64,000 bases of DNA, taken from contig CM074129.1 in the NCBI GenBank assembly GCA_037178625.1, positions 2,418,001 to 2,482,000 on the forward strand. The letters are read 5' to 3'. Position 1 is the first letter of the stretch, and each line of letters starts with the position of its first letter. A model generated the notes under the pieces. The model was not told where the DNA came from. It saw only the letters and a list, made by a program, of their open reading frames with translations, and made no database searches. Made by a program: the position numbers and the translations under genes. Below are positions 13,196 to 59,156 of the stretch, one piece after another. The stretch is from Skeletonema tropicum (Eukaryota; Bacillariophyta; Thalassiosirophyceae; Thalassiosirales; Thalassiosiraceae).

Positions 13196-14001
13196 GATGA
13201 CAATGGCCTTGACAGTTGTTGCGTTCGCTATTTTTCACGCGAAGTAACGTAATGTGGCGTTTTGATGGCTTCCAATAATTATTTATGCCGTATGAGGTTA
13301 CATTAGGGAAGGATTTCATCTTCATTCTCTCGATCTTGGATTTTATTTGAAATTTGAAAGGAGATCGCTGGATCGCTGGTATTCGCTGCGGTATTGGAAG
13401 TGAGAAAACGGAGAAAGTAAACGAGATGAAGATACATAGATGGGAAAAGAACGAAAGAAGTTCGTGCATTCAGCGCTGCACGACTCTCTCTCTCTACATA
13501 AGTAGAGCGAGAGGAGAAGATATATACGATGAGGCAATTGGATAGGCAAGTTCATGCATTCAGCGCTGCACGACTACTCTAAAGGATCAAGAAGATGCCT
13601 GGCTGAGGGAAGATCAAGACCAAGCTCACAGTTCATGCATTCAGCGCTGAACGGCTACTCTCGAGAATCAAGAGTATTAGATGCACTGGATGAGAAAAAA
13701 TCAAGATCAAGCTCATAGTTCATACATTCGCATTCAGCGCTGCATGACTACTCTGGAGGATCAAGAAGATGAGGCAAGTACTCCTCTAGTTAGCAAGCAA
13801 GTTCATGCATTCGGCGCTGCACGAAAGACTACTCTCTAGAGGATCAAGATAATACTGATACGATGTCTGGCTGAGGCAAGATCAAGATCAAGTTCATACA
13901 CTTCCACACAAACAGAAATTGAAGACATAAAAACAACTACAACTACACCAACATTCTAAACATCGATTAGACGAACTACCAACTCATAACATTATCCAGC
14001 C
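13196..14001. promoter_or_regulatory. divergent intergenic region: phosphoesterase and array copy 1
   Basis: 806 bp shared by two genes read outward. From about 13373 (CGCTGCGGTATTGGAAGTG) it is homologous to the spacers inside the array, but it is longer and more diverged, so it is likely the ancestral promoter. The last 100 bases before the ATG at 14002 (ACAACTACAACTACACCAAC..., ending CCAGCC) are nearly identical in all copies and are probably the 5' UTR. Confidence 0.6.
13461..13870 (+). repeat. five imperfect promoter repeats upstream of array copy 1
   Basis: TTCATGCATTCAGCGCTGCA or a close variant starts at about 13461, 13551, 13631, 13719 and 13801. Each is followed by ACTACTCT, GAGGATCAAGA and, in most, GATCAAGATCAAG. 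The spacing is about 80-90 bp. The core holds the palindrome AGCGCT next to TGCATT. Other units of the array keep only two such repeats. Confidence 0.75.
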
Positions 14002-14721
14002 ATGAACCTTTCTCATTCATCTGCACTTTTGCTTCTCCTTTTATCCAATGCACACGTTGCTTTTGCTTCAGGAATCCGTGGGGGCCCCCCTCAGAGCATT
14101 GAAAAGGAACGAGCTACCCCGGGCCCGGGCGTCTCTCGGCGGTTGGAAGCTGAGATGGACGAACTTGTATCTGAGGCAAATGACCGAGACTTGAAGGCAG
14201 ATAATGCTGAACTTAAGAGCAGCATTGGCATTGAGCTTGAGGCTATTGAAGAGACTCCCCAAGCCCAAGGCACGGCGATGACCCCAGTGTCTGTAAACGA
14301 GCCTGGTGATGACGAAGAACACCAGTGGCCACTACTCGAAGACATCGAGGCCCAGGAAGTATCCTTTGATGACGTCGACGTAGAACATGGGCATGGACGT
14401 GAGCTGGGAGGCTCAGACTGCGGAATTTATGCAGATCATGAATATTACTTCCACCCCAGAGCTGGCGAGTGCTACAACCTTGGTGGGACCTGGTGGAATA
14501 ATAAGGTGACTTGGATCCGTGCCTCTTCTGGAACGTGTGTTGAGGTATGGGAGCACCATGGGAGCGGAAGCTACAAGAAACACTGCGGGAGTGACTGGCT
14601 CAAGCTTGGGAGCAGTCTGTCAAGGGAGGTATCACGAGTGTGCTGTCCAGCAAAGCACCACGGGCATTGGAATGGGCATGGTCATTGGAATGGGCATTGG
14701 AATGGGCATGGACATAAGTAA
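14002..14721 (+). CDS. secreted crystallin-like six-Cys precursor, array copy 1
   Basis: 239 residues; reference description for the family. Residues 1-23 are a signal peptide (MNLSHSSALLLLLLSN...AFA). An R-X-L tripeptide, RRL (46-48), precedes an acidic pro-region to about residue 130. A second R-X-L, REL (about 133), precedes the mature part. Here six cysteines (near 140, 157, 179, 195, 214, 215) and the motif NNKVTWIR, which fits the N/D-N/D-X-X-S/T calcium-site pattern of beta/gamma-crystallin Greek keys, define a compact domain of about 80 residues. The tail is HGHWNG repeats ending HGHK. R-X-L cleavage is known for several diatom biosilica precursors; its use here is inferred. Function is unknown: wall or biosilica matrix, metal binding, inhibitor or defence are all possible. 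Unlike other copies it has two extra residues (GI) after KSSI. Confidence 0.9.
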   Translation: MNLSHSSALLLLLLSNAHVAFASGIRGGPPQSIEKERATPGPGVSRRLEAEMDELVSEANDRDLKADNAELKSSIGIELEAIEETPQAQGTAMTPVSVNEPGDDEEHQWPLLEDIEAQEVSFDDVDVEHGHGRELGGSDCGIYADHEYYFHPRAGECYNLGGTWWNNKVTWIRASSGTCVEVWEHHGSGSYKKHCGSDWLKLGSSLSREVSRVCCPAKHHGHWNGHGHWNGHWNGHGHK

Positions 14722-15518
14722 TGATGTTAGCAGTTTGAGAGCAGAACGAATAGTATAGAGAAGAAATCCTTCTAGAGTTACAAATGAAGAACGGACAAAA
14801 GAGAAGAAATCCTTTTAGAAGATAATGATAAGTAGGTGCGATACAAAAATTAGCCTGCTCCAGCTTTGTCCAGAATTTTGGTTGGTGCGGGGTATCATTG
14901 GATACACCAGCCGACATAGTGCACTTTAGCTCTTGGTTTCCTCTGTCAAGCAAGAGCAAATCATACATTGGCCAGTCTTAAAATCGTTCAAGTGATCAAG
15001 CTTTTATGTTACTCATTATAATTATATTCTTCACACTGACAAGATATCATGTATAATCCAAATTCTTTGCGTCTACAATACTGCTTGCTTCAGTTTCAAA
15101 CTGAAAAGGATGAATGAGACAATGCTCGCTACATACTATGTACTCTAAACTGGTAGTCGCTGCGGTATTGGAAGTGCGGGAACGGAAGAAAGTGGAAGAG
15201 AGGCAGCAGGGGAAAAGAGTCAGATGGCGGGGCACCAGATCAGAGTTCGTGCTTTTATTCAGCGCTGCACGACTCTATATATGCAATGAGGCAAGTACTC
15301 CTCTAGTTAGCAAGCAAGTTCATGCATTCGGCGCTGCACGAACGACTACTCTCTAGAGGATCAAGATAATACTGATACGATGTCTGGCTGAGGCAAGATC
15401 AAGATCAAGCTCATACACTTCCACACAAATAGAAATTGAAGACATAAAAACAACTACAACTACACCAACATTCTAAACATCGATTAGACGAACTACCAAC
15501 TCATAACATTATCCAGCC
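14722..15518. other. array spacer (representative of all spacers)
   Basis: 3' UTR of copy 1 with GAAGAAATCCTT twice; then TTACTCATTATAATTATATTC; then a fragment matching the 3' end of the GGPP synthase gene (15025-15103); then GTAGTCGCTGCGGTATTGG; then two promoter repeats, the first TTCAGCGCTGCACGACTC and the second TTCATGCATTCGGCGCTGCACG. TATATAT lies at about 15276, 243 bp before the next ATG, and is replaced by AGACTCTATGC in spacers after copy 6. The last 100 bases are the conserved 5' UTR. Other spacers differ only by small indels. Confidence 0.7.
15025..15103 (-). pseudogene. GGPP synthase 3'-end fragment inside the array spacer
   Basis: The minus strand reads the last codons of the synthase at 41407 (AKNLDYT then stop) and its 3' flank (CAGTGTGAAGAATATAA), with a few changes and a 3-bp-multiple insertion. 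About 60 bp of coding end are kept. The same fragment recurs in each long spacer; the three short spacers after copies 10, 11 and 12 lack it. It records where the duplicated block originally ended. Confidence 0.8.
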
Positions 15519-16232
15519 ATGAACCTTTCTCATTCATCTGCACTTTTGCTTCTCCTTTTATCCAATGCACACGTTGCTTTTGCTTCAGGAATCCGTGGGG
15601 GCCCCCCTCAGAGCATTGAAAAGGAACGAGCTACCCCGGGCCCGGACGTCTCTCGGCGGTTGGAAGCTGAGATGGACGAACTTGTATCTGAGGCAAATGA
15701 CCGAGACTTGAAGGCAGATAATGCTGAACTTAAGAGCAGCATTGAGCTTGAGGCTATTGAAGAGACTCCCCAAGCCCAAGGCACGGCGATGACCCCAGTG
15801 TCTGTAAACGAGCCTGGTGATGACGAAGAACACCAGTGGCCACTACTCGAAGACATCGAGGCCCAGGAAGTATCCTTTGATGACGTCGACGTAGAACATG
15901 GGCATGGACGTGAGCTGGGAGGCTCAGACTGCGGAATTTATGCAGATCATGAATATTACTTCCACCCCAGAGCTGGCGAGTGCTACAACCTTGGTGGGAC
16001 CTGGTGGAATAATAAGGTGACTTGGATCCGTGCCTCTTCTGGAACGTGTGTTGAGGTATGGGAGCACCATGGGAGCGGAAGCTACAAGAAACACTGCGGG
16101 AGTGACTGGCTCAAGCTTGGGAGCAGTCTGTCAAGGGAGGTATCACGAGTGTGCTGTCCAGCAAAGCACCATGGGCATTGGAATGGGCATGGTCATTGGA
16201 ATGGGCATTGGAATGGGCATGGACATAAGTAA
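15519..16232 (+). CDS. array copy 2, crystallin-like six-Cys precursor
   Basis: 237 residues. Differs from the consensus by Gly to Asp just before the first R-X-L site (GPDVSRRL). It has the longer tail with three HWNG units. Confidence 0.88.
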   Translation: MNLSHSSALLLLLLSNAHVAFASGIRGGPPQSIEKERATPGPDVSRRLEAEMDELVSEANDRDLKADNAELKSSIELEAIEETPQAQGTAMTPVSVNEPGDDEEHQWPLLEDIEAQEVSFDDVDVEHGHGRELGGSDCGIYADHEYYFHPRAGECYNLGGTWWNNKVTWIRASSGTCVEVWEHHGSGSYKKHCGSDWLKLGSSLSREVSRVCCPAKHHGHWNGHGHWNGHWNGHGHK

Positions 16233-17029
16233 TGATGTTAGCAGTTTGAGAGCAGAACGAATAGTATAGAGAAGAAATCCTTCTAGAGTTACAAATGAAG
16301 AACGGACAAAAGAGAAGAAATCCTTTTAGAAGATAATGATAAGTAGGTGCGATACAAAAATTAGCCTGCTCCAGCTTTGTCCAGAATTTTGGTTGGTGCG
16401 GGGTATCATTGGATACACCAGCCGACATAGTGCACTTTAGCTCTTGGTTTCCTCTGTCAAGCAAGAGCAAATCATACATTGGCCAGTCTTAAAATCGTTC
16501 AAGTGATCAAGCTTTTATGTTACTCATTATAATTATATTCTTCACACTGACAAGATATCATGTATAATCCAAATTCTTTGCGTCTACAATACTGCTTGCT
16601 TCAGTTTCAAACTGAAAAGGATGAATGAGACAATGCTCGCTACATACTATGTACTCTAAACTGGTAGTCGCTGCGGTATTGGAAGTGCGGGAACGGAAGA
16701 AAGTGGAAGAGAGGCAGCAGGGGAAAAGAGTCAGATGGCGGGGCACCAGATCAGAGTTCGTGCTTTTATTCAGCGCTGCACGACTCTATATATGCAATGA
16801 GGCAAGTACTCCTCTAGTTAGCAAGCAAGTTCATGCATTCGGCGCTGCACGAACGACTACTCTCTAGAGGATCAAGATAATACTGATACGATGTCTGGCT
16901 GAGGCAAGATCAAGATCAAGCTCATACACTTCCACACAAATAGAAATTGAAGACATAAAAACAACTACAACTACACCAACATTCTAAACATCGATTAGAC
17001 GAACTACCAACTCATAACATTATCCAGCC

Positions 17030-17731
17030 ATGAACCTTTCTCATTCATCTGCACTTTTGCTTCTCCTTTTATCCAATGCACACGTTGCTTTTGCTTCAGG
17101 AATCCGTGGGGGCCCCCCTCAGAGCATTGAAAAGGAACGAGCTACCCCGGGCCCGGGCGTCTCTCGGCGGTTGGAAGCTGAGATGGACGAACTTGTATCT
17201 GAGGCAAATGACCGAGACTTGAAGGCAGATAATGCTGAACTTAAGAGCAGCATTGAGCTTGAGGCTATTGAAGAGACTCCCCAAGCCCAAGGCACGGCGA
17301 TGACCCCAGTGTCTGTAAACGAGCCTGGTGATGACGAAGAACACCAGTGGCCACTACTCGAAGACATCGAGGCCCAGGAAGTATCCTTTGATGACGACGA
17401 CGTAGAACATGGGCATGGACGTGAGCTGGGAGGCTCAGACTGCGGAATTTATGCAGATCATGAATATTACTTCCACCCCAGAGCTGGCGAGTGCTACAAC
17501 CTTGGTGGGACCTGGTGGAATAATAAGGTGACTTGGATCCGTGCCTCTTCTGGAACGTGTGTTGAGGTATGGGAGCACCATGGGAGCGGAAGCTACAAGA
17601 AACACTGCGGGAGTGACTGGCTCAAGCTTGGGAGCAGTCTGTCAAGGGAGGTATCACGAGTGTGCTGTCCAGCAAAGCACCATGGGCATTGGAATGGGCA
17701 TGGTCATTGGAATGGGCATGGACATAAGTAA
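17030..17731 (+). CDS. array copy 3, crystallin-like six-Cys precursor
   Basis: 233 residues. Carries DDDDVEH in place of DDVDVEH (GTC to GAC in the acidic pro-region) and the shorter tail with two HWNG units. Confidence 0.88.
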   Translation: MNLSHSSALLLLLLSNAHVAFASGIRGGPPQSIEKERATPGPGVSRRLEAEMDELVSEANDRDLKADNAELKSSIELEAIEETPQAQGTAMTPVSVNEPGDDEEHQWPLLEDIEAQEVSFDDDDVEHGHGRELGGSDCGIYADHEYYFHPRAGECYNLGGTWWNNKVTWIRASSGTCVEVWEHHGSGSYKKHCGSDWLKLGSSLSREVSRVCCPAKHHGHWNGHGHWNGHGHK

Positions 17732-18528
17732 TGATGTTAGCAGTTTGAGAGCAGAACGAATAGTATAGAGAAGAAATCCTTCTAGAGTTACAAATGAAGA
17801 ACGGACAAAAGAGAAGAAATCCTTTTAGAAGATAATGATAAGTAGGTGCGATACAAAAATTAGCCTGCTCCAGCTTTGTCCAGAATTTTGGTTGGTGCGG
17901 GGTATCATTGGATACACCAGCCGACATAGTGCACTTTAGCTCTTGGTTTCCTCTGTCAAGCAAGAGCAAATCATACATTGGCCAGTCTTAAAATCGTTCA
18001 AGTGATCAAGCTTTTATGTTACTCATTATAATTATATTCTTCACACTGACAAGATATCATGTATAATCCAAATTCTTTGCGTCTACAATACTGCTTGCTT
18101 CAGTTTCAAACTGAAAAGGATGAATGAGACAATGCTCGCTACATACTATGTACTCTAAACTGGTAGTCGCTGCGGTATTGGAAGTGCGGGAACGGAAGAA
18201 AGTGGAAGAGAGGCAGCAGGGGAAAAGAGTCAGATGGCGGGGCACCAGATCAGAGTTCGTGCTTTTATTCAGCGCTGCACGACTCTATATATGCAATGAG
18301 GCAAGTACTCCTCTAGTTAGCAAGCAAGTTCATGCATTCGGCGCTGCACGAACGACTACTCTCTAGAGGATCAAGATAATACTGATACGATGTCTGGCTG
18401 AGGCAAGATCAAGATCAAGCTCATACACTTCCACACAAACAGAAATTGAAGACATAAAAACAACTACAACTACACCAACATTCTAAACATCGATTAGACG
18501 AACTACCAACTCATAACATTATCCAGCC

Positions 18529-19230
18529 ATGAACCTTTCTCATTCATCTGCACTTTTGCTTCTCCTTTTATCCAATGCACACGTTGCTTTTGCTTCAGGA
18601 ATCCGTGGGGGCCCCCCTCAGAGCATTGAAAAGGAACGAGCTACCCCGGGCCCGGGCGTCTCTCGGCGGTTGGAAGCTGAGATGGACGAACTTGTATCTG
18701 AGGCAAATGACCGAGACTTGAAGGCAGATAATGCTGAACTTAAGAGCAGCATTGAGCTTGAGGCTATTGAAGAGACTCCCCAAGCCCAAGGCACGGCGAT
18801 GACCCCAGTGTCTGTAAACGAGCCTGGTGATGACGAAGAACACCAGTGGCCACTACTCGAAGACATCGAGGCCCAGGAAGTATCCTTTGATGACGACGAC
18901 GTAGAACATGGGCATGGACGTGAGCTGGGAGGCTCAGACTGCGGAATTTATGCAGATCATGAATATTACTTCCACCCCAGAGCTGGCGAGTGCTACAACC
19001 TTGGTGGGACCTGGTGGAATAATAAGGTGACTTGGATCCGTGCCTCTTCTGGAACGTGTGTTGAGGTATGGGAGCACCATGGGAGCGGAAGCTACAAGAA
19101 ACACTGCGGGAGTGACTGGCTCAAGCTTGGGAGCAGTCTGTCAAGGGAGGTATCACGAGTGTGCTGTCCAGCAAAGCACCATGGGCATTGGAATGGGCAT
19201 GGTCATTGGAATGGGCATGGACATAAGTAA
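18529..19230 (+). CDS. array copy 4, crystallin-like six-Cys precursor
   Basis: 233 residues, protein identical to copy 3 (DDDDVEH, short tail). Confidence 0.88.
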   Translation: MNLSHSSALLLLLLSNAHVAFASGIRGGPPQSIEKERATPGPGVSRRLEAEMDELVSEANDRDLKADNAELKSSIELEAIEETPQAQGTAMTPVSVNEPGDDEEHQWPLLEDIEAQEVSFDDDDVEHGHGRELGGSDCGIYADHEYYFHPRAGECYNLGGTWWNNKVTWIRASSGTCVEVWEHHGSGSYKKHCGSDWLKLGSSLSREVSRVCCPAKHHGHWNGHGHWNGHGHK

Positions 19231-20030
19231 TGATGTTAGCAGTTTGAGAGCAGAACGAATAGTATAGAGAAGAAATCCTTCTAGAGTTACAAATGAAGAA
19301 CGGACAAAAGAGAAGAAATCCTTTTAGAAGATAATGATAAGTAGGTGCGATACAAAAATTAGCCTGCTCCAGCTTTGTCCAGAATTTTGGTTGGTGCGGG
19401 GTATCATTGGATACACCAGCCGACATAGTGCACTTTAGCTCTTGGTTTCCTCTGTCAAGCAAGAGCAAATCATACATTGGCCAGTCTTAAAATCGTTCAA
19501 GTGATCAAGCTTTTATGTTACTCATTATAATTATATTCTTCACACTGACAAGATATCATGTATAATCCAAATTCTTTGCGTCTACAATACTGCTTGCTTC
19601 AGTTTCAAACTGAAAAGGATGAATGAGACAATGCTCGCTACATACTATGTACTCTAAACTGGTAGTCGCTGCGGTATTGGAAGTGCGGGAACGGAAGAAA
19701 GTGGAAGAGAGGCAGCAGGGGAAAAGAGTCAGATGGCGGGGCACCAGATCAGAGTTCGTGCTTTTATTCAGCGCTGCACGACTCATACTATATGCAATGG
19801 AGGCAAGTACTCCTCTAGTTAGCAAGCAAGTTCATGCATTCGGCGCTGCACGAACGACTACTCTCTAGAGGATCAAGATAATACTGATACGATGTCTGGC
19901 TGAGGCAAGATCAAGATCAAGCTCATACACTTCCACACAAACAGAAATTGAAGACATAAAAACAACTACAACTACACCAACATTCTAAACATCGATTAGA
20001 CGAACTACCAACTCATAACATTATCCAGCC

Positions 20031-20744
20031 ATGAACCTTTCTCATTCATCTGCACTTTTGCTTCTCCTTTTATCCAATGCACACGTTGCTTTTGCTTCAG
20101 GAATCCGTGGGGGCCCCCCTCAGAGCATTGAAAAGGAACGAGCTACCCCGGGCCCGGGCGTCTCTCGGCGGTTGGAAGCTGAGATGGACGAACTTGTATC
20201 TGAGGCAAATGACCGAGACTTGAAGGCAGATAATGCTGAACTTAAGAGCAGCATTGAGCTTGAGGCTATTGAAGAGACTCCCCAAGCCCAAGGCACGGCG
20301 ATGACCCCAGTGTCTGTAAACGAGCCTGGTGATGACGAAGAACACCAGTGGCCACTACTCGAAGACATCGAGGCCCAGGAAGTATCCTTTGATGACGACG
20401 ACGTAGAACATGGGCATGGACGTGAGCTGGGAGGCTCAGACTGCGGAATTTATGCAGATCATGAATATTACTTCCACCCCAGAGCTGGCGAGTGCTACAA
20501 CCTTGGTGGGACCTGGTGGAATAATAAGGTGACTTGGATCCGTGCCTCTTCTGGAACGTGTGTTGAGGTATGGGAGCACCATGGGAGCGGAAGCTACAAG
20601 AAACACTGCGGGAGTGACTGGCTCAAGCTTGGGAGCAGTCTGTCAAGGGAGGTATCACGAGTGTGCTGTCCAGCAAAGCACCATGGGCATTGGAATGGGC
20701 ATGGTCATTGGAATGGTCATTGGAATGGGCATGGACATAAGTAA
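20031..20744 (+). CDS. array copy 5, crystallin-like six-Cys precursor
   Basis: 237 residues. DDDDVEH as in copies 3 and 4 but with the three-HWNG tail. Its upstream spacer has a changed TATA-like stretch (CTCATACTATATGC). Confidence 0.88.
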   Translation: MNLSHSSALLLLLLSNAHVAFASGIRGGPPQSIEKERATPGPGVSRRLEAEMDELVSEANDRDLKADNAELKSSIELEAIEETPQAQGTAMTPVSVNEPGDDEEHQWPLLEDIEAQEVSFDDDDVEHGHGRELGGSDCGIYADHEYYFHPRAGECYNLGGTWWNNKVTWIRASSGTCVEVWEHHGSGSYKKHCGSDWLKLGSSLSREVSRVCCPAKHHGHWNGHGHWNGHWNGHGHK

Positions 20745-21543
20745 TGATGTTAGCAGTTTGAGAGCAGAACGAATAGTATAGAGAAGAAATCCTTCTAGAG
20801 TTACAAATGAAGAACGGACAAAAGAGAAGAAATCCTTTTAGAAGATAATGATAAGTAGGTGCGATACAAAAATTAGCCTGCTCCAGCTTTGTCCAGAATT
20901 TTGGTTGGTGCGGGGTATCATTGGATACACCAGCCGACATAGTGCACTTTAGCTCTTGGTTTCCTCTGTCAAGCAAGAGCAAATCATACATTGGCCAGTC
21001 TTAAAATCGTTCAAGTGATCAAGCTTTTATGTTACTCATTATAATTATATTCTTCACACTGACAAGATATCATGTATAATCCAAATTCTTTGCGTCTACA
21101 ATACTGCTTGCTTCAGTTTCAAACTGAAAAGGATGAATGAGACAATGCTCGCTACATACTATGTACTCTAAACTGGTAGTCGCTGCGGTATTGGAAGTGC
21201 GGGAACGGAAGAAAGTGGAAGAGAGGCAGCAGGGGAAAAGAGTCAGATGGCGGGGCACCAGATCAGAGTTCGTGCTTTTATTCAGCGCTGCACGACTCAG
21301 ACTATATGCAATGAGGCAAGTACTCCTCTAGTTAGCAAGCAAGTTCATGCATTCGGCGCTGCACGAACGACTACTCTCTAGAGGATCAAGATAATACTGA
21401 TACGATGTCTGGCTGAGGCAAGATCAAGATCAAGCTCATACACTTCCACACAAACAGAAATTGAAGACATAAAAACAACTACAACTACACCAACATTCTA
21501 AACATCGATTAGACGAACTACCAACTCATAACATTATCCAGCC

Positions 21544-22258
21544 ATGAACCTTTCTCATTCATCTGCACTTTTGCTTCTCCTTTTATCCAATGCACACGTT
21601 GCTTTTGCTTCAGGAATCCGTGGGGGCCCCCCTCAGAGCATTGAAAAGGAACGAGCTACCCCGGGCCCGGGCGTCTCTCGGCGGTTGGAAGCTGAGATGG
21701 ACGAACTTGTATCTGAGGCAAATGACCGAGACTTGAAGGCAGATAATGCTGAACTTAAGAGCAGCATTGAGCTTGAGGCTATTGAAGAGACTCCCCAAGC
21801 CCAAGGCACGGCGATGACCCCAGTGTCTGTAAACGAGCCTGGTGATGACGAAGAACACCAGTGGCCACTACTCGAAGACATCGAGGCCCAGGAAGTATCC
21901 TTTGATGACGTACGACGTAGAACATGGGCATGGACGTGAGCTGGGAGGCTCAGACTGCGGAATTTATGCAGATCATGAATATTACTTCCACCCCAGAGCT
22001 GGCGAGTGCTACAACCTTGGTGGGACCTGGTGGAATAATAAGGTGACTTGGATCCGTGCCTCTTCTGGAACGTGTGTTGAGGTATGGGAGCACCATGGGA
22101 GCGGAAGCTACAAGAAACACTGCGGGAGTGACTGGCTCAAGCTTGGGAGCAGTCTGTCAAGGGAGGTATCACGAGTGTGCTGTCCAGCAAAGCACCATGG
22201 GCATTGGAATGGGCATGGTCATTGGAATGGGCATTGGAATGGGCATGGACATAAGTAA
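21544..22258 (+). pseudogene. array copy 6, frameshifted
   Basis: An extra A in GACGTACGACG (about 21909-21914) shifts the frame in the acidic pro-region and gives a stop at 21939 after 131 residues, losing the whole Cys domain. Everything after the shift is unchanged. The same insertion occurs in copy 12. Confidence 0.85.
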
Positions 22259-23065: not shown

Positions 23066-23779
23066 ATGAACCTTTCTCATTCATCTGCACTTTTGCTTCT
23101 CCTTTTATCCAATGCACACGTTGCTTTTGCTTCAGGAATCCGTGGGGGCCCCCCTCAGAGCATTGAAAAGGAACGAGCTACCCCGGGCCCGGGCGTCTCT
23201 CGGCGGTTGGAAGCTGAGATGGACGAACTTGTATCTGAGGCAAATGACCGAGACTTGAAGGCAGATAATGCTGAACTTAAGAGCAGCATTGAGCTTGAGG
23301 CTATTGAAGAGACTCCCCAAGCCCAAGGCACGGCGATGACCCCAGTGTCTGTAAACGAGCCTGGTGATGACGAAGAACACCAGTGGCCACTACTCGAAGA
23401 CATCGAGGCCCAGGAAGTATCCTTTGATGACGTCGACGTAGAACATGGGCATGGACGTGAGCTGGGAGGCTCAGACTGCGGAATTTATGCAGATCATGAA
23501 TATTACTTCCACCCCAGAGCTGGCGAGTGCTACAACCTTGGTGGGACCTGGTGGAATAATAAGGTGACTTGGATCCGTGCCTCTTCTGGAACGTGTGTTG
23601 AGGTATGGGAGCACCATGGGAGCGGAAGCTACAAGAAACACTGCGGGAGTGACTGGCTCAAGCTTGGGAGCAGTCTGTCAAGGGAGGTATCACGAGTGTG
23701 CTGTCCAGCAAAGCACCATGGGCATTGGAATGGGCATGGTCATTGGAATGGGCATTGGAATGGGCATGGACATAAGTAA
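23066..23779 (+). CDS. array copy 7, crystallin-like six-Cys precursor
   Basis: 237 residues, matching the consensus. Its 5' UTR has one extra ACAACT repeat and its 3' UTR has AACGAAG for AATGAAG, shared with copies 8 and 15. Confidence 0.88.
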   Translation: MNLSHSSALLLLLLSNAHVAFASGIRGGPPQSIEKERATPGPGVSRRLEAEMDELVSEANDRDLKADNAELKSSIELEAIEETPQAQGTAMTPVSVNEPGDDEEHQWPLLEDIEAQEVSFDDVDVEHGHGRELGGSDCGIYADHEYYFHPRAGECYNLGGTWWNNKVTWIRASSGTCVEVWEHHGSGSYKKHCGSDWLKLGSSLSREVSRVCCPAKHHGHWNGHGHWNGHWNGHGHK

Positions 23780-28998: not shown

Positions 28999-29711
28999 AT
29001 GAACCTTTCTCATTCATCTGCACTTTTGCTTCTCCTTTTATCCAATGCACACTTGCTTTTGCTTCAGGAATCCGTGGGGGCCCCCCTCAGAGCATTGAAA
29101 AGGAACGAGCTACCCCGGGCCCGGGCGTCTCTCGGCGGTTGGAAGCTGAGATGGACGAACTTGTATCTGAGGCAAATGACCGAGACTTGAAGGCAGATAA
29201 TGCTGAACTTAAGAGCAGCATTGAGCTTGAGGCTATTGAAGAGACTCCCCAAGCCCAAGGCACGGCGATGACCCCAGTGTCTGTAAACGAGCCTGGTGAT
29301 GACGAAGAACACCAGTGGCCACTACTCGAAGACATCGAGGCCCAGGAAGTATCCTTTGATGACGTCGACGTAGAACATGGGCATGGACGTGAGCTGGGAG
29401 GCTCAGACTGCGGAATTTATGCAGATCATGAATATTACTTCCACCCCAGAGCTGGCGAGTGCTACAACCTTGGTGGGACCTGGTGGAATAATAAGGTGAC
29501 TTGGATCCGTGCCTCTTCTGGAACGTGTGTTGAGGTATGGGAGCACCATGGGAGCGGAAGCTACAAGAAACACTGCGGGAGTGACTGGCTCAAGCTTGGG
29601 AGCAGTCTGTCAAGGGAGGTATCACGAGTGTGCTGTCCAGCAAAGCACCATGGGCATTGGAATGGGCATGGGCATTGGAATGGGCATTGGAATGGGCATG
29701 GACATAAGTAA
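28999..29711 (+). pseudogene. array copy 11, frameshifted after the signal peptide
   Basis: One G is missing in the codon after the 18th (CACACTTGC for CACACGTTGC), so the frame is lost inside the signal peptide and ends after 63 residues. The rest is intact from an internal ATG at 29139, but that start would give a protein without a signal peptide. The same deletion is in copies 12 and 17. Confidence 0.85.
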
Positions 29712-30414: not shown

Positions 30415-31115
30415 ATGAACCTTTCTCATTCATCTGCACTTTTGCTTCTCCTTTTATCCAATGCACACTTGCTTTTGCTTCAGGAATCCGTGGGGGCCCC
30501 CTCAGAGCATTGAAAAGGAACGAGCTACCCCGGGCCCGGGCGTCTCTCGGCGGTTGGAAGCTGAGATGGACGAACTTGTATCTGAGGCAAATGACCGAGA
30601 CTTGAAGGCAGATAATGCTGAACTTAAGAGCAGCATTGAGCTTGAGGCTATTGAAGAGACTCCCCAAGCCCAAGGCACGGCGATGACCCCAGTGTCTGTA
30701 AACGAGCCTGGTGATGACGAAGAACACCAGTGGCCACTACTCGAAGACATCGAGGCCCAGGAAGTATCCTTTGATGACGTACGACGTAGAACATGGGCAT
30801 GGACGTGAGCTGGGAGGCTCAGACTGCGGAATTTATGCAGATCATGAATATTACTTCCACCCCAGAGCTGGCGAGTGCTACAACCTTGGTGGGACCTGGT
30901 GGAATAATAAGGTGACTTGGATCCGTGCCTCTTCTGGAACGTGTGTTGAGGTATGGGAGCACCATGGGAGCGGAAGCTACAAGAAACACTGCGGGAGTGA
31001 CTGGCTCAAGCTTGGGAGCAGTCTGTCAAGGGAGGTATCACGAGTGTGCTGTCCAGCAAAGCACCATGGGCATTGGAATGGGCATGGGCATTGGAATGGG
31101 CATGGACATAAGTAA
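30415..31115 (+). pseudogene. array copy 12, three small lesions
   Basis: Combines the G deletion of copies 11 and 17, the C deletion in the GGGGGCCCCC run of copy 14, and the A insertion of copy 6. The net shift leaves no secreted product. It is the clearest mosaic in the array. Confidence 0.85.
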
Positions 31116-31818: not shown

Positions 31819-32532
31819 ATGAACCTTTCTCATTCATCTGCACTTTTGCTTCTCCTTTTATCCAATGCACACGTTGCTTTTGCTTCAGGAATCCGTGGGG
31901 GCCCCCCTCAGAGCATTGAAAAGGAACGAGCTACCCCGGGCCCGGGCGTCTCTCGGCGGTTGGAAGCTGAGATGGACGAACTTGTATCTGAGGCAAATGA
32001 CCGAGACTTGAAGGCAGATAATGCTGAACTTAAGAGCAGCATTGAGCTTGAGGCTATTGAAGAGACTCCCCAAGCCCAAGGCACGGCGATGACCCCAGTG
32101 TCTGTAAACGAGCCTGGTGATGACGAAGAACACCAGTGGCCACTACTCGAAGACATCGAGGCCCAGGAAGTATCCTTTGATGACGTCGACGTAGAACATG
32201 GGCATGGACGTGAGCTGGGAGGCTCAGACTGCGGAATTTATGCAGATCATGAATATTACTTCCACCCCAGAGCTGGCGAGTGCTACAACCTTGGTGGGAC
32301 CTGGTGGAATAATAAGGTGACTTGGATCCGTGCCTCTTCTGGAACGTGTGTTGAGGTATGGGAGCACCATGGGAGCGGAAGCTACAAGAAACACTGCGGG
32401 AGTGACTGGCTCAAGCTTGGGAGCAGTCTGTCAAGGGAGGTATCACGAGTGTGCTGTCCAGCAAAGCACCATGGGCATTGGAATGGGCATGGGCATTGGA
32501 ATGGTCATTGGAATGGACATGGACATAAGTAA
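31819..32532 (+). CDS. array copy 13, crystallin-like six-Cys precursor
   Basis: 237 residues, consensus protein, although flanked by damaged copies 12 and 14. The spacer upstream is the short type. Confidence 0.88.
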   Translation: MNLSHSSALLLLLLSNAHVAFASGIRGGPPQSIEKERATPGPGVSRRLEAEMDELVSEANDRDLKADNAELKSSIELEAIEETPQAQGTAMTPVSVNEPGDDEEHQWPLLEDIEAQEVSFDDVDVEHGHGRELGGSDCGIYADHEYYFHPRAGECYNLGGTWWNNKVTWIRASSGTCVEVWEHHGSGSYKKHCGSDWLKLGSSLSREVSRVCCPAKHHGHWNGHGHWNGHWNGHGHK

Positions 32533-33331
32533 TGATGTTAGCAGTTTGAGAGCAGAACGAATAGTATAGAGAAGAAATCCTTCTAGAGTTACAAATGAAG
32601 AACGGACAAAAGAGAAGAAATCCTTTTAGAAGATAATGATAAGTAGGTGCGATACAAAAATTAGCCTGCTCCAGCTTTGTCCAGAATTTTGGTTGGTGCG
32701 GGGTATCATTGGATACACCAGCCGACATAGTGCACTTTAGCTCTTGGTTTCCTCTGTCAAGCAAGAGCAAATCATACATTGGCCAGTCTTAAAATCGTTC
32801 AAGTGATCAAGCTTTTATGTTACTCATTATAATTATATTCTTCACACTGACAAGATATCATGTATAATCCAAATTCTTTGCGTCTACAATACTGCTTGCT
32901 TCAGTTTCAAACTGAAAAGGATGAATGAGACAATGCTCGCTACATACTATGTACTCTAAACTGGTAGTCGCTGCGGTATTGGAAGTGCGGGAACGGAAGA
33001 AAGTGGAAGAGAGGCAGCAGGGGAAAAGAGTCAGATGGCGGGGCACCAGATCAGAGTTCGTGCTTTTATTCAGCGCTGCAAGACCAAGACTCTATGCAAT
33101 GAGGCAAGTACTCCTCTAGTTAGCAAGCAAGTTCATGCATTCGGCGCTGCACGAACGACTACTCTCTAGAGGATCAAGATAATACTGATACGATGTCTGG
33201 CTGAGGCAAGATCAAGATCAAGCTCATACACTTCCACACAAACAGAAATTGAAGACATAAAAACAACTACAACTACACCAACATTCTAAACATCGATTAG
33301 ACGAACTACCAACTCATAACATTATCCAGCC

Positions 33332-34056
33332 ATGAACCTTTCTCATTCATCTGCACTTTTGCTTCTCCTTTTATCCAATGCACACGTTGCTTTTGCTTCA
33401 GGAATCCGTGGGGGCCCCCTCAGAGCATTGAAAAGGAACGAGCTACCCCGGGCCCGGGCGTCTCTCGGCGGTTGGAAGCTGAGATGGACGAACTTGTATC
33501 TGAGGCAAATGACCGAGACTTGAAGGCAGATAATGCTGAACTTAAGAGCAGCATTGAGCTTGAGGCTATTGAAGAGACTCCCCAAGCCCAAGGCACGGCG
33601 ATGACCCCAGTGTCTGTAAACGAGCCTGGTGATGACGAAGAACACCAGTGGCCACTACTCGAAGACATCGAGGCCCAGGAAGTATCCTTTGATGACGTCG
33701 ACGTAGAACATGGGCATGGACGTGAGCTGGGAGGCTCAGACTGCGGAATTTATGCAGATCATGAATATTACTTCCACCCCAGAGCTGGCGAGTGCTACAA
33801 CCTTGGTGGGACCTGGTGGAATAATAAGGTGACTTGGATCCGTGCCTCTTCTGGAACGTGTGTTGAGGTATGGGAGCACCATGGGAGCGGAAGCTACAAG
33901 AAACACTGCGGGAGTGACTGGCTCAAGCTTGGGAGCAGTCTGTCAAGGGAGGTATCACGAGTGTGCTGTCCAGCAAAGCACCATGGGCATTGGAATGGGC
34001 ATGGGCATTGGAATGGTCATTGGAATGGTCATTGGAATGGGCATGGACATAAGTAA
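33332..34056 (+). pseudogene. array copy 14, frameshifted, longest tail
   Basis: One C is missing from the GGGGGCCCCCC run, so the signal peptide reads into a wrong frame and ends after 63 residues. The Cys domain is intact further on. It has four HWNG units, the longest tail in the array. Confidence 0.85.
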
Positions 34057-34859
34057 TGATGTTAGCAGTTTGAGAGCAGAACGAATAGTATAGAGAAGAA
34101 ATCCTTCTAGAGTTACAAATGAAGAACGGACAAAAGAGAAGAAATCCTTTTAGAAGATAATGATAAGTAGGTGCGATACAAAAATTAGCCTGCTCCAGCT
34201 TTGTCCAGAATTTTGGTTGGTGCGGGGTATCATTGGATACACCAGCCGACATAGTGCACTTTAGCTCTTGGTTTCCTCTGTCAAGCAAGAGCAAATCATA
34301 CATTGGCCAGTCTTAAAATCGTTCAAGTGATCAAGCTTTTATGTTACTCATTATAATTATATTCTTCACACTGACAAGATATCATGTATAATCCAAATTC
34401 TTTGCGTCTACAATACTGCTTGCTTCAGTTTCAAACTGAAAAGGATGAATGAGACAATGCTCGCTACATATATACTATGTACTCTAAACTGGTAGTCGCT
34501 GCGGTATTGGAAGTGCGGGAACGGAAGAAAGTGGAAGAGAGGCAGCAGGGGAAAAGAGTCAGATGGCGGGGCACCAGATCAGAGTTCGTGCTTTTATTCA
34601 GCGCTGCAAGACCAAGACTCTATGCAATGAGGCAAGTACTCCTCTAGTTAGCAAGCAAGTTCATGCATTCGGCGCTGCACGAACGACTACTCTCTAGAGG
34701 ATCAAGATAATACTGATACGATGTCTGGCTGAGGCAAGATCAAGATCAAGCTCATACACTTCCACACAAACAGAAATTGAAGACATAAAAACAACTACAA
34801 CTACACCAACATTCTAAACATCGATTAGACGAACTACCAACTCATAACATTATCCAGCC

Positions 34860-35573
34860 ATGAACCTTTCTCATTCATCTGCACTTTTGCTTCTCCTTTT
34901 ATCCAATGCACACGTTGCTTTTGCTTCAGGAATCCGTGGGGGCCCCCCTCAGAGCATTGAAAAGGAACGAGCTACCCCGGGCCCGGGCGTCTCTCGGCGG
35001 TTGGAAGCTGAGATGGACGAACTTGTATCTGAGGCAAATGACCGAGACTTGAAGGCAGATAATGCTGAACTTAAGAGCAGCATTGAGCTTGAGGCTATTG
35101 AAGAGACTCCCCAAGCCCAAGGCACGGCGATGACCCCAGTGTCTGTAAACGAGCCTGGTGATGACGAAGAACACCAGTGGCCACTACTCGAAGACATCGA
35201 GGCCCAGGAAGTATCCTTTGATGACGTCGACGTAGAACATGGGCATGGACGTGAGCTGGGAGGCTCAGACTGCGGAATTTATGCAGATCATGAATATTAC
35301 TTCCACCCCAGAGCTGGCGAGTGCTACAACCTTGGTGGGACCTGGTGGAATAATAAGGTGACTTGGATCCGTGCCTCTTCTGGAACGTGTGTTGAGGTAT
35401 GGGAGCACCATGGGAGCGGAAGCTACAAGAAACACTGCGGGAGTGACTGGCTCAAGCTTGGGAGCAGTCTGTCAAGGGAGGTATCACGAGTGTGCTGTCC
35501 AGCAAAGCACCATGGGCATTGGAATGGGCATGGTCATTGGAATGGGCATTGGAATGGGCATGGACATAAGTAA
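34860..35573 (+). CDS. array copy 15, crystallin-like six-Cys precursor
   Basis: 237 residues, consensus protein. Its 3' flank shares AACGAAG and AATCAAAATTC with copies 7 and 8. Confidence 0.88.
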   Translation: MNLSHSSALLLLLLSNAHVAFASGIRGGPPQSIEKERATPGPGVSRRLEAEMDELVSEANDRDLKADNAELKSSIELEAIEETPQAQGTAMTPVSVNEPGDDEEHQWPLLEDIEAQEVSFDDVDVEHGHGRELGGSDCGIYADHEYYFHPRAGECYNLGGTWWNNKVTWIRASSGTCVEVWEHHGSGSYKKHCGSDWLKLGSSLSREVSRVCCPAKHHGHWNGHGHWNGHWNGHGHK

Positions 35574-36376
35574 TGATGTTAGCAGTTTGAGAGCAGAACG
35601 AATAGTATAGAGAAGAAATCCTTCTAGAGTTACAAACGAAGAAACGGACAAAAGAGAAGAAATCCTTTTAGAAGATAATGATAAGTAGGTGCGATACAAA
35701 AATTAGCCTGCTCCAGCTTTGTCCAGAATTTTGGTTGGTGCGGGGTATCATTGGATACACCAGCCGACATAGTGCACTTTAGCTCTTGGTTTCCTCTGTC
35801 AAGCAAGAGCAAATCATACATTGGCCAGTCTTAAAATCGTTCAAGTGATCAAGCTTTTATGTTACTCATTATAATTATATTCTTCACACTGACAAGATAT
35901 CATGTATAATCAAAATTCTTTGCGTCTACAATACTGCTTGCTTCAGTTTCAAACTGAAAAGGATGAATGAGACAATGCTCGCTACATACTATGTACTCTA
36001 AACTGGTAGTCGCTGCGGTATTGGAAGTGCGGGAACGGAAGAAAGTGGAAGAGAGGCAGCAGGGGAAAAGAGTCAGATGGCGGGGCACCAGATCTGAGTT
36101 CGTGCTTTTATTCAGCGCTGCAATAAGACCAAGACTCTATGCAATGAGGCAAGTACTCCTCTAGTTAGCAAGCAAGTTCATGCATTCGGCGCTGCACGAA
36201 CGACTACTCTCTAGAGGATCAAGATAATACTGATACGATGTCTGGCTGAGGCAAGATCAAGATCAAGCTCATACACTTCCACACAAATAGAAATTGAAGA
36301 CATAAAAACAACTACAACTACACCAACATTCTAAACATCGATTAGACGAACTACCAACTCATAACATTATCCAGCC

Positions 36377-37078
36377 ATGAACCTTTCTCATTCATCTGCA
36401 CTTTTGCTTCTCCTTTTATCCAATGCACACGTTGCTTTTGCTTCAGGAATCCGTGGGGGCCCCCCTCAGAGCATTGAAAAGGAACGAGCTACCCCGGGCC
36501 CGGGCGTCTCTCGGCGGTTGGAAGCTGAGATGGACGAACTTGTATCTGAGGCAAATGACCGAGACTTGAAGGCAGATAATGCTGAACTTAAGAGCAGCAT
36601 TGAGCTTGAGGCTATTGAAGAGACTCCCCAAGCCCAAGGCACGGCGATGACCCCAGTGTCTGTAAACGAGCCTGGTGATGACGAAGAACACCAGTGGCCA
36701 CTACTCGAAGACATCGAGGCCCAGGAAGTATCCTTTGATGACGTCGACGTAGAACATGGGCATGGACGTGAGCTGGGAGGCTCAGACTGCGGAATTTATG
36801 CAGATCATGAATATTACTTCCACCCCAGAGCTGGCGAGTGCTACAACCTTGGTGGGACCTGGTGGAATAATAAGGTGACTTGGATCCGTGCCTCTTCTGG
36901 AACGTGTGTTGAGGTATGGGAGCACCATGGGAGCGGAAGCTACAAGAAACACTGCGGGAGTGACTGGCTCAAGCTTGGGAGCAGTCTGTCAAGGGAGGTA
37001 TCACGAGTGTGCTGTCCAGCAAAGCACCATGGGCATTGGAATGGGCATGGTCATTGGAATGGGCATGGACATAAGTAA
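36377..37078 (+). CDS. array copy 16, crystallin-like six-Cys precursor
   Basis: 233 residues with the two-HWNG tail, same protein as copies 8 and 9. Confidence 0.88.
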   Translation: MNLSHSSALLLLLLSNAHVAFASGIRGGPPQSIEKERATPGPGVSRRLEAEMDELVSEANDRDLKADNAELKSSIELEAIEETPQAQGTAMTPVSVNEPGDDEEHQWPLLEDIEAQEVSFDDVDVEHGHGRELGGSDCGIYADHEYYFHPRAGECYNLGGTWWNNKVTWIRASSGTCVEVWEHHGSGSYKKHCGSDWLKLGSSLSREVSRVCCPAKHHGHWNGHGHWNGHGHK

Positions 37079-37872
37079 TGATGTTAGCAGTTTGAGAGCA
37101 GAACGAATAGTATAGAGAAGAAATCCTTCTAGAGTTACAAATGAAGAACGGACAAAAGAGAAGAAATCCTTTTAGAAGATAATGATAAGTAGGTGCGATA
37201 CAAAAATTAGCCTGCTCCAGCTTTGTCCAGAATTTTGGTTGGTGCGGGGTATCATTGGATACACCAGCCGACATAGTGCACTTTAGCTCTTGGTTTCCTC
37301 TGTCAAGCAAGAGCAAATCATACATTGGCCAGTCTTAAAATCGTTCAAGTGATCAAGCTTTTATGTTACTCATTATAATTATATTCTTCACACTGACAAG
37401 ATATCATGTATAATCCAAATTCTTTGCGTCTACAATACTGCTTGCTTCAGTTTCAAACTGAAAAGGATGAATGAGACAATGCTCGCTACATACTATGTAC
37501 TCTAAACTGGTAGTCGCTGCGGTATTGGAAGTGCGGGAACGGAAGAAAGTGGAAGAGAGGCAGCAGGGGAAAAGAGTCAGATGGCGGGGCACCAGATCTG
37601 AGTTCGTGCTTTTATTCAGCGCTGCAATAAGACCAAGACTCTATGCAATGAGGCAAGTACTCCGCAAGCAAGTTCATGCATTCGGCGCTGCACGAACGAC
37701 TACTCTCTAGAGGATCAAGATAATACTGATACGATGTCTGGCTGAGGCAAGATCAAGATCAAGCTCATACACTTCCACACAAACAGAAATTGAAGACATA
37801 AAAACAACTACAACTACACCAACATTCTAAACATCGATTAGACGAACTACCAACTCATAACATTATCCAGCC

Positions 37873-38592
37873 ATGAACCTTTCTCATTCATCTGCACTTT
37901 TGCTTCTCCTTTTATCCAATGCACACTTGCTTTTGCTTCAGGAATCCGTGGGGGCCCCCCTCAGAGCATTGAAAAGGAACGAGCTACCCCGGGCCCGGGC
38001 GTCTCTCGGCGGTTGGAAGCTGAGATGGACGAACTTGTATCTGAGGCAAATGACCGAGACTTGAAGGCAGATAATGCTGAACTTAAGAGCAGCATTGAGC
38101 TTGAGGCTATTGAAGAGACTCCCCAAGCCCAAGGCACGGCGATGACCCCAGTGTCTGTAAACGAGCCTGGTGATGACGAAGAACACCAGTGGCCACTACT
38201 CGAAGACATCGAGGCCCAGAAAGTATCCTTTGATGACGTCGACGTAGAACATGGGCATGGACGTGAGCTGGGAGGCTCAGACTGCGGAATTTATGCAGAT
38301 CATGAATATTACTTCCACCCCAGAGCTGGCGAGTGCTACAACCTTGGTGGGACCTGGTGGAATAATAAGGTGACTTGGATCCGTGCCTCTTCTGGAACGT
38401 GTGTTGAGGTATGGGAGCACCATGGGAGCGGAAGCTACAAGAAACACTGCGGGAGTGACTGGCTCAAGCTTGGGAGCAGTCTGTCAAGGGAGGTATCACG
38501 AGTGTGCTGTCCAGCAAAGCACCATGGGCATTGGAATGGCTGGCATTGATGGTCATTGGAATGGGCATTGGAATGGGCATGGACATAAGTAA
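37873..38592 (+). pseudogene. array copy 17, frameshifted, damaged tail
   Basis: Joins the G deletion of copy 11 with the Glu to Lys change of copy 10. In addition the tail holds GGCTGGCATTGATGG, which ends the domain frame early at 38549. Confidence 0.85.
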
Positions 38593-39392
38593 TGATGTTA
38601 GCAGTTTGAGAGCAGAACGAATAGTATAGAGAAGAAATCCTTCTAGAGTTACAAATGAAGAACGGACAAAAGAGAAGAAATCCTTTTAGAAGATAATGAT
38701 AAGTAGGTGCGATACAAAAATTAGCCTGCTCCAGCTTTGTCCAGAATTTTGGTTGGTGCGGGGTATCATTGGATACACCAGCCGACATAGTGCACTTTAG
38801 CTCTTGGTTTCCTCTGTCAAGCAAGAGCAAATCATACATTGGCCAGTCTTAAAATCGTTCAAGTGATCAAGCTTTTATGTTACTCATTATAATTATATTC
38901 TTCACACTGACAAGATATCATGTATAATCCAAATTCTTTGCGTCTACAATACTGCTTGCTTCAGTTTCAAACTGAAAAGGATGAATGAGACAATGCTCGC
39001 TACATACTATGTACTCTAAACTGGTAGTCGCTGCGGTATTGGAAGTGCGGGAACGGAAGAAAGTGGAAGAGAGGCAGCAGGGGAAAAGAGTCAGATGGCG
39101 GGGCACCAGATCTGAGTTCGTGCTTTTATTCAGCGCTGCAATAAGACCAAGACTCTATGCAATGAGGCAAGTACTCCGCAAGCAAGTTCATGCATTCGGC
39201 GCTGCACGAACGACTACTCTCTAGAGGATCAAGATAATACTGATACGATGTCTGGCTGAGGCAAGATCAAGATCAAGCTCATACACTTCCACACAAACAG
39301 AAATTGAAGACATAAAAACAACTACAACTACAACTACACCAACATTCTAAACATCGATTAGACGAACTACCAACTCATAACATTATCCAGCC

Positions 39393-40106
39393 ATGAACCT
39401 TTCTCATTCATCTGCACTTTTGCTTCTCCTTTTATCCAATGCACACGTTGCTTTTGCTTCAGGAATCCGTGGGGGGCCCCCTCAGAGCATTGAAAAGGAA
39501 CGAGCTATCCCGGGCCCGGGCGTCTCTCGGCGGTTGGAAGCTGAGATGGACGAACTTGTATCTGAGGCAAATGACCGAGACTTGAAGGCAGATAATGCTG
39601 AACTTAAGAGCAGCATTGAGCTTGAGGCTATTGAAGAGACTCCCCAAGCCCAAGGCACGGCGATGACCCCAGTGTCTGTAAACGAGCCTGGTGATGACGA
39701 AGAACACCAGTGGCCACTACTCGAAGACATCGAGGCCCAGGAAGTATCCTTTGATGACGTCGACGTAGAACATGGGCATGGACGTGAGCTGGGAGGCTCA
39801 GACTGCGGAATTTATGCAGATCATGAATATTACTTCCACCCCAGAGCTGGCGAGTGCTACAACCTTGGTGGGACCTGGTGGAATAATAAGGTGACTTGGA
39901 TCCGTGCCTCTTCTGGAACGTGTGTTGAGGTATGGGAGCACCATGGGAGCGGAAGCTACAAGAAACACTGCGGGAGTGACTGGCTCAAGCTTGGGAGCAG
40001 TCTGTCAAGGGAGGTATCACGAGTGTGCTGTCCAGCAAAGCACCATGGGCATTGGAATGGGCATGGGCATTGGAATGGGCATTGGAATGGACATGGACAT
40101 AAGTAA
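39393..40106 (+). CDS. array copy 18, crystallin-like six-Cys precursor
   Basis: 237 residues. Thr to Ile before the first R-X-L site (RAIPGPG). The GC run reads GGGGGGCCCCC instead of GGGGGCCCCCC, which keeps the frame. Tail of three HWNG units. Confidence 0.88.
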   Translation: MNLSHSSALLLLLLSNAHVAFASGIRGGPPQSIEKERAIPGPGVSRRLEAEMDELVSEANDRDLKADNAELKSSIELEAIEETPQAQGTAMTPVSVNEPGDDEEHQWPLLEDIEAQEVSFDDVDVEHGHGRELGGSDCGIYADHEYYFHPRAGECYNLGGTWWNNKVTWIRASSGTCVEVWEHHGSGSYKKHCGSDWLKLGSSLSREVSRVCCPAKHHGHWNGHGHWNGHWNGHGHK

Positions 40107-40913
40107 TGATGTTAGCAGTTTGAGAGCAGAACGAATAGTATAGAGAAGAAATCCTTCTAGAGTTACAAATGAAGAACGGACAAAAGAGAAGAAATCCTTT
40201 TAGAAGATAATGATAAGTAGGTGCGATACAAAAATTAGCCTGCTCCAGCTTTGTCCAGAATTTTGGTTGGTGCGGGGTATCATTGGATACACCAGCCGAC
40301 ATAGTGCACTTTAGCTCTTGGTTTCCTCTGTCAAGCAAGAGCAAATCATACATTGGCCAGTCTTAAAATCGTTCAAGTGATCAAGCTTTTATGTTACTCA
40401 TTATAATTATATTCTTCACACTGACAAGATATCATGTATAATCCAAATTCTTTGCGTCTACAATACTGCTTGCTTCAGTTTCAAACTGAAAAGGATGAAT
40501 GAGACAATGCTCGCTACATATATACTATGTACTCTAAACTGGTAGGTAGTCGCTGCGGTATTGGAAGTGCGGGAACGGAAGAAAGTGGAAGAGAGGCAGC
40601 AGGGGAAAAGAGTCAGATGGCGGGGCACCAGATCAGAGTTCGTGCTTTTATTCAGCGCTGCAAGACCAAGACTCTATGCAATGAGGCAAGTACTCCTCTA
40701 GTTAGCAAGCAAGTTCATGCATTCGGCGCTGCACGAACGACTACTCTCTAGAGGATCAAGATAATACTGATACGATGTCTGGCTGAGGCAAGATCAAGAT
40801 CAAGCTCATACACTTCCACACAAACAGAAATTGAAGACATAAAAACAACTACAACTACACCAACATTCTAAACATCGATTAGACGAACTACCAACTCATA
40901 ACATTATCCAGCC

Positions 40914-41040
40914 ATGAACCTTTCTCATTCATCTGCACTTTTGCTTCTCCTTTTATCCAATGCACACGATTCCTGAAGGTCCGACTTGTGAGAAAAACTT
41001 TTGTTTCACAGGAATCTGGCTTAAAGGAAAGCACAAGTAA
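40914..41040 (+). pseudogene. array copy 19, hybrid of array 5' end and an older gene 3' end
   Basis: The first 18 codons equal the array signal peptide, then after CACACG the sequence differs. In its own frame it stops after 20 codons. One base off, a 23-codon frame from 40969 runs to TAA at 41038-41040. It contains two cysteines (PTCEKNFCFTG) and ends KGKHK, like the array's HGHK end. The following 3' UTR (41041-41400) is homologous to the array UTR but clearly diverged. This is probably the residue of the gene originally beside GGPP synthase, joined to the last unit. Confidence 0.7.
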
Positions 41041-41406
41041 TGTCGTCTGTATATATTTGTGAAGAGTTTGAGAGCAGAATGAATACAACTAGGATATAGA
41101 TGAAAGAAGAACAGACAAATGAGAAGAAATCCTTTTAGAAGATTATGATAAGTAGTTTGAAACAATATTGATATTAGTTTGCTTTAGCTGTGTCTAGCAT
41201 TTCGGTTGGTGCTAAAGAAGAGCAACGGGACTGGTGTCTTCAACAGGTGCGGTGTATCATTGAATAAACCAGCCGACATAGTGCACTTTAGCTCATATTT
41301 GTTTGCTCTGTCAACCAAGCAGTACTTCATACATTGTCCAATCTTACAATCGTTCAAGTGATCAAGCATTTATGTTACTTGTTATATTCTTCACACTGAC
41401 AAGATA

Positions 41407-59089: not shown

Positions 59090-59156
59090 GGTTATGGGTA
59101 GTATTCGTCTGCTTACAAGTCCAACGTAGGATAGCAGAGCGTTTCAACATGTACCA

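Follow-up and report, generated by a model that had tools for sequence, protein, structure and literature searches.

The gene array and its paralogs

A 64,000-nucleotide stretch of Skeletonema tropicum DNA (contig CM074129.1, positions 2,418,001 to 2,482,000, hereafter the window) carries a real tandem array of genes for a probably secreted precursor with a predicted beta/gamma-crystallin fold. With one member of the array, copy 2, as the query against the 64-kb window, blastn recovers 18 gene-length copies on the + strand, with starts running from 14002 to 39393 and a unit length of 1404-1528 bp. Thirteen of the 18 contain an intact open reading frame (ORF), of 239, 237 or 233 amino acids (aa), and the frame is broken in copies 6, 11, 12, 14 and 17. 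The 18 same-strand genes of an initial annotation can therefore be retained as gene-length copies, only 13 of which are intact. The copies are (all on the + strand):

14002..14721, +, copy 1, intact ORF of 239 aa
15519..16232, +, copy 2 (reference), intact ORF of 237 aa
17030..17731, +, copy 3, intact ORF of 233 aa
18529..19230, +, copy 4, intact ORF of 233 aa
20031..20744, +, copy 5, intact ORF of 237 aa
21544..22258, +, copy 6, frame broken in the pro-region, just ahead of the mature domain
23066..23779, +, copy 7, intact ORF of 237 aa
24583..25284, +, copy 8, intact ORF of 233 aa
26086..26787, +, copy 9, intact ORF of 233 aa
27582..28295, +, copy 10, intact ORF of 237 aa, 96-bp spacer deletion (shared with 11 and 12)
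28999..29711, +, copy 11, frame broken in the signal peptide, 96-bp spacer deletion
30415..31115, +, copy 12, several frame breaks, 96-bp spacer deletion
31819..32532, +, copy 13, intact ORF of 237 aa
33332..34056, +, copy 14, frame broken soon after the signal peptide
34860..35573, +, copy 15, intact ORF of 237 aa, unit nearly equal to that of copy 7
36377..37078, +, copy 16, intact ORF of 233 aa, unit nearly equal to that of copy 9
37873..38592, +, copy 17, frame broken in the signal peptide, tail altered as well
39393..40106, +, copy 18, intact ORF of 237 aa

The units that align to copy 2 in one piece are 97.6-99.5% identical to it, and copies 10-12, all three with the 96-bp spacer deletion, align in two pieces at 97.8-99.8%. 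Because the repeats are 1.5 kb long and near-identical, a chance origin of the array is excluded. At the same time no two of the 18 assembled units are alike (1 to 19 differences per pair, with 2 between copies 7 and 15 and a single one between copies 9 and 16), and the array is therefore not one unit printed 18 times. The way in which variants are shared among the units is the pattern expected from unequal crossing-over and gene conversion. Two or three of the broken copies have certain small changes in common, which favours real variants that spread over random errors of the reads, even though one such change sits in a C run and may itself be an error. Tandem units of high similarity are a known difficulty in assembly; collapsed copies of rDNA are reported in a paper on long-read sequencing of a diatom (PMC8147415). 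That the array is an assembly artefact, with a true copy number that is smaller or larger, is yet very improbable, given that all 18 units differ, that the shared variants are nested, that the array ends in a relic (see below) and that it lies inside a 4.9-Mb contig.

The length of the tail differs between copies, and the crystallin domain (246 bp) is without substitution in all 18. Selection that would have frozen the domain within the array was considered and rejected: where the domain has zero substitutions in 246 bp, the remainder of the unit, without the tail, would lead one to expect about 3.7 (a chance of about 0.025), which is a weak signal and one that holds for the broken copies too.

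A search of the genome (78.4 Mb, 125 contigs) yielded five paralogs elsewhere, four of which form a tandem group on the opposite strand, some 93 kb upstream of the array:

C3:2332384-2339007, opposite to the array, four tandem paralogs (locus L009), two of them intact, 341 aa each
C9:989107-990132, one paralog (locus L010), intact ORF of 342 aa

All five carry an additional C-terminal domain of about 125 residues. The kinship of the array gene to these two-domain paralogs is established by an identity of 90.5-92.4% that extends to codon 216, after which the alignment resumes about 10 bp past the stop codon; the tail of the array protein therefore occupies the place of the second domain of the paralogs. 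Between array and paralogs dN/dS is 0.38-0.42 overall, a range that includes doubtfully aligned tail codons, and 0.29-0.32 in the crystallin domain. Two matches of the domain search on contig C7 were discarded, the one that was read being out of frame in what looks like an AMP-binding-type gene, and among the 61 pattern matches in viral contigs there was no relative.

The region downstream of copy 18 and the region upstream of copy 1 contain three further features:

40914..41040, +, truncated 19th unit, made up of 55 bp from the gene start and the relic CEKNFCFTGIWLKGKHK, which follows in a different frame
41382..41458, stretch that enters the 3' end of a polyprenyl synthase ORF (41407-42441, - strand) and has copies in units of the array and of the distant paralogs
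13459..13843, +, five occurrences, 77-93 bp apart, of an upstream element whose core is TTCRGCGCTGCACGA or close to it, ahead of copy 1

It is because of the truncated unit, which begins at 40914, that the initial annotation let the array end at 41040. CEKNFCFTGIWLKGKHK is what is left of the final codons of the paralogs' second domain (protein E 0.015), and the 3' flank of that domain is present as well (DNA E 9e-106 to L009). The homology to the array units runs on to 41458, i.e. inside the end of the adjoining synthase ORF, and copies of the 41382..41458 stretch occur in 15 of the 18 array units and in three of the four units of the distant paralog array; it lies outside the conserved part of the synthase (PF00348, residues 17-263 of 344). 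Since the 19th unit retains a relic of the second domain and both arrays hold a piece of the synthase end, a two-domain gene probably stood beside the synthase and both arrays inherited its breakpoint, although the direction of this history is inferred from the sequences.

The core TTCRGCGCTGCACGA occurs 35 times in the genome, always at the three loci of the crystallin gene family (26 in the window, and 6 and 3 at the paralogs), and its reversed control has no genome match. In the window an exact core precedes every one of the 19 starts, including that of the truncated unit, by 192-198 bp. Three exact copies precede the first gene at all three loci, and array copy 1 has two degenerate ones in addition. 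Judged by this distribution, the element is a mark of shared descent and perhaps of shared control; it provides no tie of the crystallin gene family to other genes.

The precursor and its predicted fold

In the protein encoded by copy 2, residues 1-22 resemble a signal peptide (judged by eye), residues 23-133 form the pro-region, the second part of which (49-133) has a net charge of -23, residues 134-215 form the mature domain and residues 216-237 the His/Trp tail. The mature part amounts to 104 residues with 6 Cys, 13 His and 8 Trp, and its last 22 residues, the HGHWNG tail, account for 8 His and 3 Trp. The signal peptide (as a signal-peptide-like start), acidic pro-region, six Cys, NNKVT motif and HGHWNG tail of the initial annotation are thus each present.

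The R-X-L sites of that annotation exist too, albeit as three rather than two tripeptides ahead of the domain, namely RRL46, RDL62 and REL131, of which the last (131-133) directly precedes the mature part. We compared 13 proteins: the window protein, the C9 paralog, one of the four C3 paralogs and the relatives P0001-P0008, P0044 and P0045; eight of these are close relatives, so that the independent support comes from about six lineages. REL131 is the only site with a counterpart in all 13. This conserved site, which the comparison establishes, reads R-X-L in 12 and R-X-M in one (P0006), just ahead of the crystallin domain, and its Arg stands exactly 7 residues ahead of the first Cys in 12 proteins and 9 in P0004. 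At the position of RRL46 the other 12 proteins have no such tripeptide, P0008 and P0044 carry another early R-X-L, and the more distant relative P0025 has no R-X-L before its crystallin. The succession of a signal peptide (by eye) and an R-X-L before the mature part is seen at the level of sequence, where an R-X-L-type pro-peptide is supported. An endopeptidase of diatom silica proteins is proposed to recognize R-X-L (PMC4557024), Sin1 has a pro-stretch that ends in RRL, such domains being removed in silaffins (PMC5525289), and the motif is termed a potential cleavage site (PMC9650480). The idea that the pro-region is a specific charge mask of the His tail is ruled out, as the tail-less paralogs retain much the same acidic pro-region.

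The predicted structure of the mature domain is an eight-strand fold with the paired four-strand Greek keys of the beta/gamma-crystallin superfamily, and in a VIA-align comparison other crystallins score as well as DdCAD-1. At the sequence level, a profile of the domain scores 30.6 against the crystallin half of P0025, compared with at most 23.5 in 200 shuffles and 7.4 for the reversed sequence, i.e. a similarity beyond chance to an accepted superfamily member. With both lines of evidence the crystallin-like character that the initial annotation gave to the mature domain is upheld, and we take this domain to have a predicted beta/gamma-crystallin fold. Of eight isolated domains seven match PF08964 (best E 6.1e-5); none of the full-length family members scanned reaches the curated cut-off, 11 of 13 matching below it (best 22.3 of 27.3 bits), and the full window protein and P0004 do not match. 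The genome search with PF08964 returned no match, the controls being equally silent. The window protein has no match in Pfam or NCBIfam, and in a sequence search of PDB the window protein, a paralog and the domain profile gave only chance-like matches. None of the 13 domains examined holds the strict calcium motif N/D-N/D-x-x-S/T-S; all 13 have W-(N/D)-(N/D)-(K/R)-(V/I)-T in key 1, without the final Ser, and P0025 carries the full motif twice.

Copy number and expression

In the case of a highly expressed gene one would look for codon usage biased towards that of highly expressed genes. On an index referenced to 17 light-harvesting ORFs (a rougher reference agrees) the array gene shows no such bias, its value of 0.334 standing against 0.616-0.777 for the 17 light-harvesting ORFs and 0.271-0.532 for 11 other genes of the window. 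The array protein, when recoded, scores 0.366 +/- 0.028 with the usage of the window and 0.728 +/- 0.029 with light-harvesting usage. The highly expressed product envisaged in the initial annotation is thus not borne out, codon usage being background-like and five of the 18 copies broken.

The genome has 128 matches to light-harvesting proteins (PF00504), among which we observed clusters at C5:1065804-1084116 (8 matches), C17:594099-613483 (9), C6:1656346-1771088 (14) and C13:111482-395098 (12). Spacing is fairly regular on C5 and C17 and irregular on C6 and C13, the strands on C13 are mixed, and many matches have equal scores (8 on C5). Because the genome also holds tandem light-harvesting gene arrays, tandem copies are not special to the crystallin-fold gene and the array form stands out less than one might think. 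The copy number could then be functionless, i.e. a by-product of unequal crossing-over in an array-prone genome in which one or few copies do the work, as the light-harvesting arrays or clusters on these four contigs, the background-like codon usage, the broken copies and the repetition of neighbouring units (7 with 15, 9 with 16) would suggest. We consider this doubtful: the arrayed light-harvesting genes show a strong codon bias, so that here at least arrays accompany high expression, and in the crystallin array no unit has lost the element at -192 to -198 and 13 copies stay intact.

Function and relation to known systems

The reading that we prefer, tentatively and at somewhat less than an even chance, is that of a processed, exported, surface-binding crystallin-fold module with a His/Trp anchor, the array of which descends from a two-domain ancestor. 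An intact copy would yield a precursor that enters the secretory pathway by its putative signal peptide, and a cut after the conserved R-E-L would remove the 111-residue pro-region to give the 104-residue mature protein, i.e. a beta/gamma-crystallin-fold domain with six conserved Cys (probably in disulfides) that no longer has the strict calcium motif and to which the 22-residue tail is attached. Outside the cell this protein would act as a small, stable surface-binding module. Through its crystallin face it would bind to the diatom wall or mucilage, at a glycan or a protein there, and the tail of His and Trp, positive when acidic and metal-binding when neutral, would anchor it to silica, metal or acidic polymers. 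We infer cleavage, location and binding from the features of the precursor, as we do any metal, wall or biotic role. In terms of history, a two-domain ancestor beside the polyprenyl synthase gene would have lost its C-terminal domain, gained the tail and then multiplied by unequal crossing-over and gene conversion.

The relatives show that the crystallin domain has several partners. In P0006, P0007, in part P0008, and P0025 the partner is the second domain seen in the paralogs, in P0044 and P0045 it is CAP (PF00188 at 2.6e-14 and 8.7e-22) and in P0005 an apparent start of a Kazal inhibitor (E 0.021, below the cut-off); P0046, a 104-residue fragment of the pro-region only, was excluded from the domain counts. 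The search also exposes the second domain as an undescribed secreted-type domain, with the pattern C-x3-GG-x-C ... GCGG ... GWEGCC ... GWYCEKD ... TGIWLKG and, in the scans made, no match in Pfam or PDB. It is found in L010 (2274-2633), in the four copies of L009 and in 37 fetched database proteins. One relative of this domain is from Discostella pseudostelligera of the order Thalassiosirales. The domain also occurs with hevein chitin-binding domains (P0017, P0021), EGF repeats (P0033) and others. In an alignment of 38 sequences, 37 positions are kept in at least 90%, of which 20 are Gly, Cys or Trp. CAP, Kazal, hevein and EGF modules are typically secreted and belong to surface and biotic interaction.

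These partners favour a serious rival, namely a secreted defence or biotic-interaction protein whose targets would be bacteria, fungi, viruses or their enzymes and which its pro-peptide would silence until export. Besides CAP, the sub-threshold Kazal-like start, hevein and EGF, it can draw on the fact that some proteins with a crystallin fold are peptidase inhibitors (family I36, PF03995, whose cut-off P0025 passes), and copy-number change with broken copies suits fast-evolving interaction genes. The change of the domain between array and paralogs is however purifying rather than diversifying, its 246 bp are the same in all 18 copies, and PF03995 matches neither the window protein nor the genome (controls positive). 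We consider a defence role rather unlikely. Adhesion between cells or to a substrate, as by Dictyostelium DdCAD-1, a member of PF08964, is an improbable alternative: the adhesion of DdCAD-1 is calcium-dependent, whereas the strict calcium motif is missing in 13 of 13 domains, and other crystallins score as well as DdCAD-1.

Much work has been done on crystallin-fold domains of lenses, bacteria and slime moulds. The microbial ones (Flavobacterium 3hzb, clostrillin, Neurospora APP, Protein S, DdCAD-1) share with the array protein the eight-strand fold, here predicted, of 80-90 residues and one W-N/D-N/D-x-x-T loop, but not the six invariant Cys, the loss of the strict calcium motif, the R-X-L precursor or the His/Trp tail. 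With the R-X-L-processed diatom silica precursors, i.e. silaffins, silacidins, cingulins, frustulins and Sin1 (PMC4557024, PMC5525289), the array protein has in common a signal-peptide-like start and an R-X-L before the mature part; it differs in its folded, Cys-rich, crystallin-type domain, and its link to silica is putative. Two glass-sponge proteins (PMC10282587) resemble it by a His-rich part (glassin) and by Cys-rich domains paired with a His-rich end (the TIL-domain and His-repeat protein of Aphrocallistes), but the tail has only 22 residues, and the resemblance, like the link to silica, is one of analogy. By analogy only, the single-exon gene blocks of the dinoflagellate Polarella glacialis (PMC7245778) are likewise unidirectional and uninterrupted near-identical copies with conserved spacers; the present array is from a diatom, has a conserved upstream element in each unit and has codon usage without a sign of high expression.

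Among the matches listed in a limited search of the open-licence literature there was no report of a diatom beta/gamma-crystallin, nor of a diatom array of this type, in agreement with the initial annotation. We regard the array protein as a new variant, with a known fold in a probably processed, Cys-rich diatom version with a His/Trp tail. A broader idea, which we think unlikely, is that of a new diatom family in which a beta/gamma-crystallin was turned into a processed, Cys-braced wall- or silica-binding protein with an exchangeable C-terminal cassette (His/Trp tail, CAP, Kazal-like, or the ~125-residue Cys/Trp-rich domain), one cassette being amplified 18-fold here. With a wall location, diatom biosilica research would gain a makeable, testable folded protein with a clear processing site, and with a defence role the locus would be a copy-number-variable interaction locus in a diatom.

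Three observations stand apart from the array. Silicon transporter genes are present in the genome (PF03842, best E 2.7e-245), which together with the 128 light-harvesting matches upholds a diatom as the host; five of these transporter genes lie within about 31 kb (C9:400091-430881), four on one strand. On contig C11 near 2701780 (L014:1-2016, - strand) a nuclear ORF, distinct from rbcL, has a RuBisCO-like start followed by transketolase-like sequence, the latter recognized by eye. The window itself also contains tandem repeats at 9580-10256 and 59150-59631, with periods of 184 and 183 bp.

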